Shown here in pieces: positions 20,940 to 24,630 of a stretch of 64,000 nucleotides of DNA. The first letter of the stretch is position 1. Each line of letters begins with the position of its first letter. The notes beneath the pieces were generated by a model. The model saw only the letters and a list, made by a program, of their open reading frames with translations, made no database searches and was not told the DNA's origin. Origin of the DNA: Limnothrix sp. CACIAM 69d (lineage in GTDB: Bacteria; Cyanobacteriota; Cyanobacteriia; CACIAM-69d). The position numbers were made by a program, and so were the translations under genes. The stretch lies in NCBI GenBank assembly GCA_001913845.2, contig MKGP02000076.1, positions 1-64,000 on the forward strand. Direction: 5' to 3'.

Positions 20940-22103
20940 CTAGGCTGCGGGCATGGCCAGGGCATCGGCCGTTGACCAATAGGCATAAATGGGGGTTTTG
21001 AGGGCGGGCAATTCGCCGCCGGTATTCACCTGCATGACCGTTAACCGATCGCCCGATCGCAGTTCTACCACGTAATGCACATGGGTTCCCAGGTACATCA
21101 CGTTCTGCAACCAGCCCTCAAAGCAGTTCACCGCTAGATCGGGCGGGTAAAGACTAACTTGAATTTTTTCGGGGCGCACGCTCACGGCCGCCGCCTCGCC
21201 CGCGCTGCCGGCCCAATCGCCGCTGGGGGCCGCCACCAGCTTCAGGCCGCTGTCGGTCACGATCGCGCTGCCGGTGCGATCGAACTCCGCCACCCGGCCT
21301 CGAAACAGATTCGTATCCCCAATGAAGTCCGCCACAAACGGCGTGCGCGGCGACTCATAAATCTCGCTGGGACTGCCCACCTGTTCCACGCGCCCTTCAT
21401 TCATCACCGCGATTCGATCGGACAGGCTGAGAGCTTCCTCTTGGTCATGGGTCACCATCACAAAGGTCAACCCCAGTTCCCGATGCAGCGTGGATAGTTC
21501 CATCTGCATTTCCTTGCGCAGTTTCAAGTCCAACGCGCCCAAGGGTTCATCCAACAGCAGCACCGCCGGTCGGTTCACCAGGGCCCGCGCTAGGGCCACC
21601 CGCTGTTGCTGACCGCCCGATAGCTGGTTGGGATAGCGCCGGGCGAATTTCTCCATCTTCACCAGGGCCAAGGCCTCGTTTACCCGCTCCTCGGTTTCCG
21701 CCTTGCCACAGCGCTTGATCCGCAAACCAAAGGCCACATTGTCCCAAATGGTCATGTGTCCAAAGAGCGCATAGCTTTGAAACACGGTGTTGACGGGGCG
21801 CTGGTAAGGAGGCACATTCAGCATCGATTGCCCCCTAACCAGCACCTCGCCGGCCGAAGGTTGCTCAAAGCCAGCCACGAGGCGCAGGGTGGTGGTTTTG
21901 CCGCAACCGGAGGGACCCAAAATACTGAAAAACTCACCCCGCCCGATGTGGAGATCCACGCCGCGCACAGCGGTTTCGCCGTTATAGACTTTGAAGACTT
22001 TTCGTAACTCGACATCCAGTTGGGTATCGGTTTCGATCGCCTGGCTGGCTCGGATTGCGGTTTGGGACATGGCCGGTGATGCTGCCGGGGATTGAAAGAC
22101 CAT
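20940..22103 (-). CDS. potA: Polyamine ABC transporter ATPase PotA
   Basis: A 387-residue ATPase that powers polyamine import through PotBC. Walker A (GPSGCGKTT), signature (LSGGQQQR), Walker B (LLLDEP) and the H-loop VTHDQEEA are intact. The C-terminal TOBE-like domain (FRGRVAEFD to SVRPEKI) is present. It is first of four minus-strand pot genes. ATG 22103 gives a 33-residue polar leader before the ATPase domain; ATG 22070 (MSQTAIRAS) is an alternative. Confidence 0.93.
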   Translation of the reverse strand: MVFQSPAASPAMSQTAIRASQAIETDTQLDVELRKVFKVYNGETAVRGVDLHIGRGEFFSILGPSGCGKTTTLRLVAGFEQPSAGEVLVRGQSMLNVPPYQRPVNTVFQSYALFGHMTIWDNVAFGLRIKRCGKAETEERVNEALALVKMEKFARRYPNQLSGGQQQRVALARALVNRPAVLLLDEPLGALDLKLRKEMQMELSTLHRELGLTFVMVTHDQEEALSLSDRIAVMNEGRVEQVGSPSEIYESPRTPFVADFIGDTNLFRGRVAEFDRTGSAIVTDSGLKLVAAPSGDWAGSAGEAAAVSVRPEKIQVSLYPPDLAVNCFEGWLQNVMYLGTHVHYVVELRSGDRLTVMQVNTGGELPALKTPIYAYWSTADALAMPAA

Positions 22104-22402: not shown

Positions 22403-24247
22403 ATGGTCGCATCGCCTCCTCCCAACTCGCCCAAATTGGATCAGCAGCCGGAACGGACGATCGGGCGGCGCTACCAGCCGTTGGGCTGCTTGATTGTGGC
22501 CGTGGTGTTGCTGGGGGGCATTGGTGGCCGGTTGGCCTATCTGCAACTGATTGAAGGACAGCGCTATCGACAATTGGCGGCGGCCAGCCGAATTCGGCTG
22601 ATGCCAACCCTGCCAACCCGGGCCGCCCTGCTGGATCGATCGGGGCGAGTGTTGGTGGATAATCGCCCCTCCATTTCGGCCATGGCTTGGCCCGTGGCCC
22701 AATCGCCGCAGGAATGGCGGGCCCTGTTGCCGGAGTTGGCCCGCGTGTTGGGGCGGCCGGAGTCGGAATTGCTGGCACGACTGGAGCAGGCCGGTTGGCG
22801 ATCGCCCGTACTGGTGCGCTTGGCCCGGGGGCTGCCCCCTTCGCAAATGACCACGGTGGCGGAGTTGGCCACTCAAGTGCGCGGCCTGGCGATCCAGCCC
22901 GAGGCGGAGCGCGACTATCCCCACGGACAGCTCGCCCAGACCATTTTGGGCAAGGTGGGGGAGGTGAATGCGGCGGAGGTCGATCGACTGGAACCGCTGC
23001 AAGATTACCGATCGGGCGATCTGATTGGGCGATCGGGCTTGGAAGCGGCCCTAGAGGCCCAACTGCGGGGCCAGTCCGGGGGCGAGCAAGTGGAACTCGA
23101 TCGCAACGGCCTGCCCGTGCGCGTGTTGGCCCGCAAACCCACGGAACCGCCCACACCGGTTCGCTTGACCTTAGATTTACCGCTGCAACAAACCCTGGAA
23201 GGGCTGATTAACGGAGTCAGCGGGGCCGCAGTCGCCCTGGATCCGGACAATGGCGCGGTGTTGGCCATGGCCGGCCAATGGCCCAACCCGGGTCAAGGGG
23301 GCAACCGGGCCCTGAAAGCCATTCGCCCGGGCGCATTGTTCAAATGGATTACCGCTGTGGCGGCGTTGGAGTCGGGGCAAATGGCCCTTCATCAGCGGTG
23401 GCGGATCGATCGTCGCAGTCGTCCCGGTGGGTTGCCCTGGGCGGAATTTACCAAGGTCACTTGGCCGAGCATTGTCACCCTTAACTTTCAAGAGGCCTTG
23501 GGCAAGTTAGACACCCAAGACAGTGATGCATTTTTTGAGCAGGTGGCGCTCCGGCTGGATAGCACCAACACGATCGCCTGGGCCCGTCGGTTTGGGTTTG
23601 GCCAGCGATCGGGCATTGAACTGGCCGAGGATGAGGATCCGGGCCCCAGCTTGGAAGCCCTTTGGAAACGGGAATCGGTGCAAGCCCGCTGGTATTTGGG
23701 CGAAGGGGTGAATCTGGCCCTGGGCCGGGGCGAAATGGCCGCCTCGCCCCTGCAAATTGCCGTGATGGCCGCCGTGGCGGTGAATGGGGGCTATCGGGTG
23801 CAACCCCATTTAGTCAAGGATCGATCGGCCCAGGTCAGCCGAGAATTTTTGGGATTGCAGCCCAGCACCTTGGAACTGTTGAGATCGGCCCTGCAACCGC
23901 GCACCAGCAGCCTCCCCGTTCCCGAGGCGAGCCAGCCTCCCGATCGCCCACCCCAACCCAACGCCGTGATCGGCTGGTTGGCCACCCACAGCCTGGTGCG
24001 GCAAAGCGACCAACCGATCGGCGCTTGGGCCGTGGCAGCGGGCCCCGCCAACGATCCCAAAATTGTCGTGGTCACCTTTGTGGAGCAGCCGAGCGATCGC
24101 CCCTTGGCCCCCGTCGATCCCGCCGTAACTCCATCCAACGGTGCAGCGAGCCAAGAACCCAGCGCTCCCGCCGCCCAAGCCGCCGAACAAATTGCCGGGG
24201 CAACGGTGGTCAACTATGTGCAATCGCTCGATCGCTGGCTGCCCTAG
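22403..24247 (+). CDS. PBP2-like protein without transpeptidase active-site motifs
   Basis: A 614-residue class B penicillin-binding protein homologue: one N-terminal membrane helix (about 27-47), a pedestal domain (about 60-245) and a transpeptidase fold (about 250-560). PBP2 (MrdA) normally cross-links peptidoglycan during elongation. The SxxK motif reads A311-L-F-K314 in PGALFK, so the nucleophilic Ser is Ala (codon GCA at 23333-23335). The SxN position reads QDSDAFF, and where KTG is expected (about 500-525) the sequence is Pro-rich with no KTG. The fold motif GRGEMAASPLQIA and the dimer-type pedestal remain. The gene is full-length and in frame, so it looks like a maintained pseudoenzyme or scaffold rather than decay. 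Confidence 0.85.
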   Translation: MVASPPPNSPKLDQQPERTIGRRYQPLGCLIVAVVLLGGIGGRLAYLQLIEGQRYRQLAAASRIRLMPTLPTRAALLDRSGRVLVDNRPSISAMAWPVAQSPQEWRALLPELARVLGRPESELLARLEQAGWRSPVLVRLARGLPPSQMTTVAELATQVRGLAIQPEAERDYPHGQLAQTILGKVGEVNAAEVDRLEPLQDYRSGDLIGRSGLEAALEAQLRGQSGGEQVELDRNGLPVRVLARKPTEPPTPVRLTLDLPLQQTLEGLINGVSGAAVALDPDNGAVLAMAGQWPNPGQGGNRALKAIRPGALFKWITAVAALESGQMALHQRWRIDRRSRPGGLPWAEFTKVTWPSIVTLNFQEALGKLDTQDSDAFFEQVALRLDSTNTIAWARRFGFGQRSGIELAEDEDPGPSLEALWKRESVQARWYLGEGVNLALGRGEMAASPLQIAVMAAVAVNGGYRVQPHLVKDRSAQVSREFLGLQPSTLELLRSALQPRTSSLPVPEASQPPDRPPQPNAVIGWLATHSLVRQSDQPIGAWAVAAGPANDPKIVVVTFVEQPSDRPLAPVDPAVTPSNGAASQEPSAPAAQAAEQIAGATVVNYVQSLDRWLP

Positions 24248-24630
24248 GGCGGACAGCTAATGCTCATCAGGTCTTCGCGGATCCAGGCCCGGCGATCAGG
24301 CGGCACGATCTCGCCCTGACCCGATCGGGACTTGGTGACCATGTGCCACTGATTGCCCTGGCCATCGGTGTGGGTCAGGGGATTGGGTCCCCACCGCTCA
24401 TTCGTGTCGTTGAGCAAAATCACCGTACTGCTGGGGTTGACCCGATCCACGATCGAGAATTGAGTGCCTGGGCCCGATCGCAAATTCACCGCTGAATTAC
24501 TGCGAATCGTGCCAAAACAATTGGTTCCAAGGAATTGCCCTGAACTAGGCGGGGCGATCGCAAGACTCAAAATTGTGGCAACGCCCATTGAGATCGGCGC
24601 AAAGGGAAGTGATTGAACAAGAAATTTCAT
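24244..24630 (-). CDS. Exported SH3-like domain protein
   Basis: A 128-residue protein with a signal peptide (about 1-31, cleavage after PPSSG or nearby) and one bacterial SH3-type domain. The domain opens with SAVNLRSGPGTQFSIVDRV, the usual VNLRxGPGxxY pattern of cell-wall-associated SH3 domains. Two cysteines (C38 in GTNCFGT and the C-terminal SCPP) may pair. Its stop overlaps the stop of the convergent PBP2-like gene by 4 bp. A link to cell-wall biology fits both, but direct interaction is inference. Confidence 0.82.
   Translation of the reverse strand: MKFLVQSLPFAPISMGVATILSLAIAPPSSGQFLGTNCFGTIRSNSAVNLRSGPGTQFSIVDRVNPSSTVILLNDTNERWGPNPLTHTDGQGNQWHMVTKSRSGQGEIVPPDRRAWIREDLMSISCPP

Follow-up and report, generated by a model that had tools for sequence, protein, structure and literature searches.

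The gene at 22403..24247 on the forward strand of the window (the whole stretch of 64,000 nucleotides analysed here) raises the question of what a PBP2-type protein does once the residues of its chemistry are gone. The earlier note had described the product as a full-length PBP2-like protein lacking all three transpeptidase motifs, and had suggested a conserved pseudoenzyme, perhaps a scaffold or regulator of cell-wall elongation. Gene and protein, a PBP2-type pseudo-transpeptidase of 614 aa, are called PSI throughout.

Architecture and active site of PSI

The reading frame is uninterrupted over 614 codons plus a stop. Both PBP_dimer (PF03717; residues 71-240, 124.3 bits, E 9.9e-36, Pfam cut-off 24.4) and Transpeptidase (PF00905; from residue 274, 81.9 bits, E 6.2e-23, cut-off 22.1) exceed their cut-offs in this one protein, which assigns it to the class B PBPs. 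Among NCBIfam models, MrdA/PBP2 (TIGR03423) scores best, at 293.6 bits and thus under the equivalog cut-off of 455. PSI is about 40% identical over its full length to the main cyanobacterial PBP2, and the solved structures closest to it in sequence are MrdA proteins. An AlphaFold2 model (mean pLDDT 82, pTM 0.79) matched solved PBP2s and PBP3s with Z about 33 and rmsd 2.6-3.7 Å, among them A. baumannii PBP2 8zpc_B (Z 33.1, 458 residues, rmsd 2.6 Å), and the best PBP2 found by Foldseek had E 1.6e-35; this predicted fold is partly borrowed from canonical PBP2s, because the alignment behind the model included 42 canonical homologues.

From the N-terminus, PSI comprises a predicted helix with a membrane anchor (residues 25-63; 22475..22591, forward strand), delimited from the model and the count of conserved columns; the pedestal, or PBP_dimer, domain (residues 71-240; 22613..23122, forward strand); and a transpeptidase-fold domain without catalytic motifs (residues 259-566; 23177..24100, forward strand), placed by Pfam, conserved columns and the model. 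Six residues of the N-terminal helix (R43, L44, L47, Q48, G52 and R63) are invariant across all six orthologues described below.

The active-site positions were read against a canonical reference of 42 PBP2 rows, in which 126 columns reach a conservation of 95% or more. At the SxxK site, PGALFK (residues 309-314; 23327..23344, forward strand), the serine is replaced by Ala311 and the lysine is retained as K314. The SxN site is D373-S374-D375 (23519..23527, forward strand), with Asp373 in place of serine and a 4-residue insertion ahead; the Asp in the third position also occurs in many intact orthologues (SSD). The KTG site reads T528-H529-S530 (23984..23992, forward strand). The alignment thus bears out each of the three losses that had been read from the letters. 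A true SxxK and KTG elsewhere in the protein would, according to the earlier note, have refuted its reading: a pattern scan of the whole window protein found no S..K anywhere and no KTG or KSG, only RSG strings away from the motif site.

The six orthologues have lost the site in different ways. The SxxK site reads ALFK, ALFK, PLFQ, PWMR, SLFE and SLFE, so that position 311 is A, A, P, P, S and S, position 314 is K, K, Q, R, E and E, and serine and lysine never occur together (0/6). The two proteins that retain the serine, those of G003 and G005, have Glu where the SxxK lysine is expected. The SxN serine is gone from all six (D, D, D, A, L, L), as is the KTG lysine (T, T, I, I, R, R), and the 4-residue insertion ahead of SxN is common to all. 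The loop ahead of SxxK is shortened in the window's genus; in G003 and G005 (L042, L044) this loop, at the mouth of the dead site, is extended by a long, repeat-like acidic insert whose length differs between the two. Displaced motifs were ruled out in the orthologues as well: K[ST]G occurs in none of the six reading frames and S..K only in that of G005, at two places, one upstream of the presumed start and one in an insert ahead of the KTG site. An active D,D-transpeptidase has an SxxK with nucleophilic serine and lysine, together with SxN and KTG; PSI has no such SxxK, and SxN and KTG are missing in 6/6 orthologues. Judging from these sequences, the transpeptidase of PSI is almost certainly catalytically dead.

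Distribution, locus and ancestry

An orthologue of PSI with an intact frame was present in each of the six genomes examined of the window's cyanobacterial family (G000 to G005, three genera), and its occurrence in six separate genomes ruled out an assembly error or a lone pseudogene. Identity is 71-98% inside the window's genus and about 40% (43-46%) between genera of the family; outside the family it is at most 45% to the window protein among the rows listed (388 class genomes). Because the cross-genus identity within the family is only 43-46%, identity alone does not mark the PSI clade; the tree does. Searches with the window protein covered 39 genomes of relatives, the six family genomes and the 388 class genomes, and a six-row PSI profile was run against 386 genomes of the phylum, where the three family members drawn scored 932-1073 bits and the rest at most 602. 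In these searches, proteins resembling PSI came from family members only.

Outside the family, motifs were read residue by residue in 90 PBP2-type proteins, other PBP2s being judged by profile score alone, and were intact in all 90 (25/25, 22/22 and 43/43). This set is not random, because the set of 22 came from the proteins that matched the window protein best and the set of 43, from 40 loci, was picked by hand for spread over families. One of the 43, a canonical PBP2 (L157, G353), reads SLFK instead of STFK, which is still SxxK, and its remaining motifs are intact; in another cyanobacterial family (f32), three loci (L133, L136 and L137, in G595, G282 and G622) hold adjacent pairs of intact PBP2 genes on the same strand. 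According to the earlier note, orthologues with intact motifs would point to recent decay. Such positional orthologues do exist outside the family, but the reading as recent decay did not hold: being common to three genera, the motif loss in PSI is, on the sequence comparison, old and family-wide.

The divergent neighbour of PSI in the window is a gene for an ABC ATPase (20940..22103, reverse strand), which we take to be potG-like, of the spermidine/putrescine type. The same divergent arrangement occurs in four of the six family genomes, from two genera (G000, G001, G002 and G004). For canonical PBP2 outside the family, a divergent potG lies within 1.5 kb at 13 of 25 loci, the other 12 having no potG within that distance, and potG was inside the 1.5-kb flank at 22/22 further canonical loci. 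Since potG adjoins both PSI and many canonical PBP2s, PSI looks like the occupant of the ancestral PBP2 locus, of which potG is the marker.

The phylogenetic analyses placed PSI in a single clade (support 100/100). In a 62-row tree, this clade lay inside the potG-linked canonical PBP2s, at forks supported by 97/97 and 92/94, and apart from the paralogue B described below; the branches are long and the bootstrap was not fully settled. A first tree of 48 rows had PSI in a basal position, with a long-branch warning, and separated FtsI from the PBP2 group including PSI at 100/100. In an AU test, PSI and B as one clade were not rejected (p 0.365), and an RpoB tree, for which 28 of 38 genomes gave a match, was mostly unresolved. 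Paralogue B may have arisen by duplication or by transfer. Descent of PSI from the principal cyanobacterial PBP2, the one linked to potG, is part of the explanation preferred below and shares the moderate probability that we give to that explanation as a whole, docking included.

PSI does not stand alone in its genomes. Eight loci in the window's genome encode a transpeptidase domain, and two PBP2 paralogues, A and B, are each motif-intact in 6/6 family genomes. FtsI is motif-intact in the five genomes where it was retrieved, and the search used gave no match in G001. The canonical, motif-intact PBP2s that the earlier note proposed to look for in the same genome are thus present. In the window's genus, about 1 kb separates A from B (L002/L003, G000:C80), and in the other two genera they are on separate contigs; the gene 3' of B in the window's genus is presumably lipA-like. 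Loci of the RodA/FtsW type (SEDS) number two per genome in G000-G004, with one found in the fragmented G005, and MreC is encoded in all six. No extra SEDS partner dedicated to PSI was found in the six family genomes; without a SEDS protein of its own, PSI would share RodA.

On its other side, the PSI gene end is overlapped by four bases by an SH3-like gene (24244-24630, reverse strand), whose product scores 24.9 bits for SH3_3, under the Pfam cut-off of 27, and has an apparent signal peptide by eye. The exported SH3-like neighbour of the earlier note does adjoin PSI in the window, but the link is not conserved: such a gene lies beside PSI only in G000 and G002 (2/6 family genomes), which rules it out as a conserved partner, and it is probably unrelated to PSI.

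Selection on the two halves of the protein

Whole-gene dN/dS for PSI was 0.084 (G000-G002), 0.229 (G000-G001, with synonymous sites near saturation) and 0.118 (G003-G005), within an overall range of 0.08-0.25. Estimates by part were obtained with 1000 codon bootstraps for two independent genome pairs, G000-G001 and G003-G005. In the transpeptidase half, dN/dS was 0.236 (95% interval 0.140-0.337) and 0.135 (0.091-0.191), respectively, against 0.03-0.07 for paralogues A and B; in the pedestal it was 0.136 (0.080-0.223) and 0.066 (0.034-0.116), against 0.05-0.10 for the paralogues. Compared with A or B, PSI had a larger surplus of amino-acid change in its transpeptidase half relative to its pedestal (p 3e-5, 0.0013, 0.0041 and 0.0077). 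The C-terminal tail is under weak constraint in the window's genus (0.48-0.70). The same gradient was seen in the canonical conserved cells kept by PSI, which amount to 94% in the N-terminal and membrane part, 85% in the pedestal, 53% in the transpeptidase domain and 4% in the tail. By these estimates, the membrane and pedestal half of PSI is constrained about like that of the active paralogues, and the transpeptidase half is relaxed, although not free. The regional dN/dS and the conserved cells together indicate that the half which in known systems docks on RodA has been held.

Constraint has also been gained. Twenty-two residues are invariant in the PSI proteins and rare in the canonical rows, 13 of them in the transpeptidase fold, seven in the pedestal and two at the N-terminus; these indicate a new constraint on PSI and more than decay. 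A cluster of seven (L417, E418, L420, Q427, R429, G435 and R442), found by comparing the six PSI proteins with the 42 canonical rows, falls in residues 417-442 (23651..23728, forward strand), and all seven are invariant in the six and occur in 0/42 canonical rows. PSI shares with PBP2/MrdA one membrane helix, the pedestal and the transpeptidase fold in the same order, and in 4/6 genomes it is the positional orthologue by potG, but it differs in the missing three motifs, the shortened pre-SxxK loop of the window's genus, the pre-SxN insertion and the 13 new invariant residues of the transpeptidase fold. PSI very probably has a selected function, and the conserved pseudoenzyme that had been suspected from one sequence is supported by the motif loss in six genomes and by the low dN/dS.

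Possible functions of PSI

In earlier studies, changes in the pedestal of E. coli PBP2 are described as activating polymerisation by RodA (PMC6207328), and PBP2 as activating RodA through interface I and restraining it through interface II, with MreC as a likely regulator (PMC10257715); this activation is separate from crosslinking (PMC6207328, PMC10257715). In a further study, S. aureus PBP1 appears as a division factor with a role apart from catalysis (PMC9426605). Both proteins thus act on partners independently of crosslinking, as is proposed here for PSI; both retain their active sites, whereas the PSI lineage has dropped the chemistry altogether. PSI would also resemble, in a general way, the pseudoenzymes that regulate an active paralogue, being a dead copy beside the motif-intact A and B. 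A literature search, whose coverage left out most subscription journals, found no described PBP pseudoenzyme, and this absence is weak evidence of the novelty of PSI. The cyanobacterial PBPs of Leganes 2005 are listed in PMC7766704.

The explanation that we prefer, with moderate confidence, is that PSI is a dead PBP2 that docks on RodA and MreC and acts as a non-crosslinking regulator of elongation. As the pedestal of known PBP2 activates RodA and PSI keeps its membrane and pedestal half, PSI could still associate with RodA and control how active or how occupied it is. It would dock on RodA (and MreC) through the membrane helix and pedestal and would activate, hold or compete there, adding no crosslinks, while these would be supplied by paralogue A and/or B. 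The transpeptidase-fold domain, freed from catalysis, may have taken on a new shape around residues 417-442, as a conserved surface that binds or acts as a lever. For the docking step taken by itself, by analogy with these PBP2s, our inclination is slight, and the role of scaffold or regulator of elongation that the earlier note had suggested would fit the better-preserved half. A fuller version is tentative and, on balance, doubtful: the ancestral elongation PBP2 may have become a dedicated regulator of RodA that activates or restrains polymerisation without crosslinking, with the two other PBP2s crosslinking and the transpeptidase domain serving as a binding lever. The hinge residue K240, described as tethered in E. 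coli PBP2 (PMC10257715), corresponds to A243 in PSI; this says nothing specific about PSI, because Gly is the usual residue at this position in canonical PBP2s of cyanobacteria. Against the preferred explanation count the position of PSI in two of the six genomes, where it does not adjoin potG and lies upstream of fraC, and the failure to find an additional SEDS protein dedicated to PSI in the family genomes.

With 13 of the 22 PSI-specific residues in the transpeptidase fold, the new function may lie outside the pedestal. It is conceivable, if rather unlikely, that the function sits in this fold, which would act as a sensor or scaffold by binding either peptidoglycan stems or a partner protein, RodA docking being incidental. 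The 13 residues, rare or absent in canonical PBP2s and with seven clustered at 417-442, agree with such a role, as do purifying selection on the domain (upper bounds of dN/dS 0.34 and 0.19) and its predicted PBP2-like fold (Z and rmsd as above); yet in both genome pairs this domain changes more rapidly than either the pedestal of PSI or its counterparts in A and B, and the predicted fold was drawn towards PBP2 by the 42 canonical rows in the alignment. The locus in the two genomes without adjoining potG suggests another role, which we consider improbable, namely that PSI serves the filament septum and shapes the septal wall or its junctions with FraC/FraD. In G003 (L042:5958-9654) and G005 (L044:2769-5603), a FraC gene (PF24301) in the same orientation lies immediately downstream of PSI, across a gap of about 130-280 bases, a DUF5357 gene follows fraC in G003, and FraC is found in all six family genomes. 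However, FraC does not adjoin PSI in the other four, and in the 20 fraC-bearing genomes outside the family no PBP2 was found in the 1.5 kb on either side of fraC. A pattern scan in G005 for a shared PSI-fraC transcript saw neither a promoter nor a terminator.

Two further readings seem to us scarcely credible. A slowly decaying gene without function would account for motif losses that vary by genus, for the weakly constrained tail and for the relaxed transpeptidase half, but not for a frame that is intact in 6/6 genomes of three genera, or for dN/dS far under 1, bounds included, in both halves. Equally, the presence of some polar residues close to the site (in the window's genome, K314 and D375) could be taken to suggest an altered, non-classical catalytic activity; the six orthologues, however, share no single residue at the SxxK site that could serve as nucleophile or base, and the window protein offers no alternative SxxK.

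Engineered and selected mutants have already shown that PBP2 activates RodA allosterically, in a role distinct from its chemistry. In PSI, the chemistry seems to have been lost in evolution and the docking half retained throughout a family, which makes a non-catalytic role directly testable; if this is true, PSI would amount to a natural experiment in which the two tasks of PBP2 are uncoupled. It is also a warning that a gene annotated as a PBP need not encode an enzyme that makes crosslinks or a protein that beta-lactams target.
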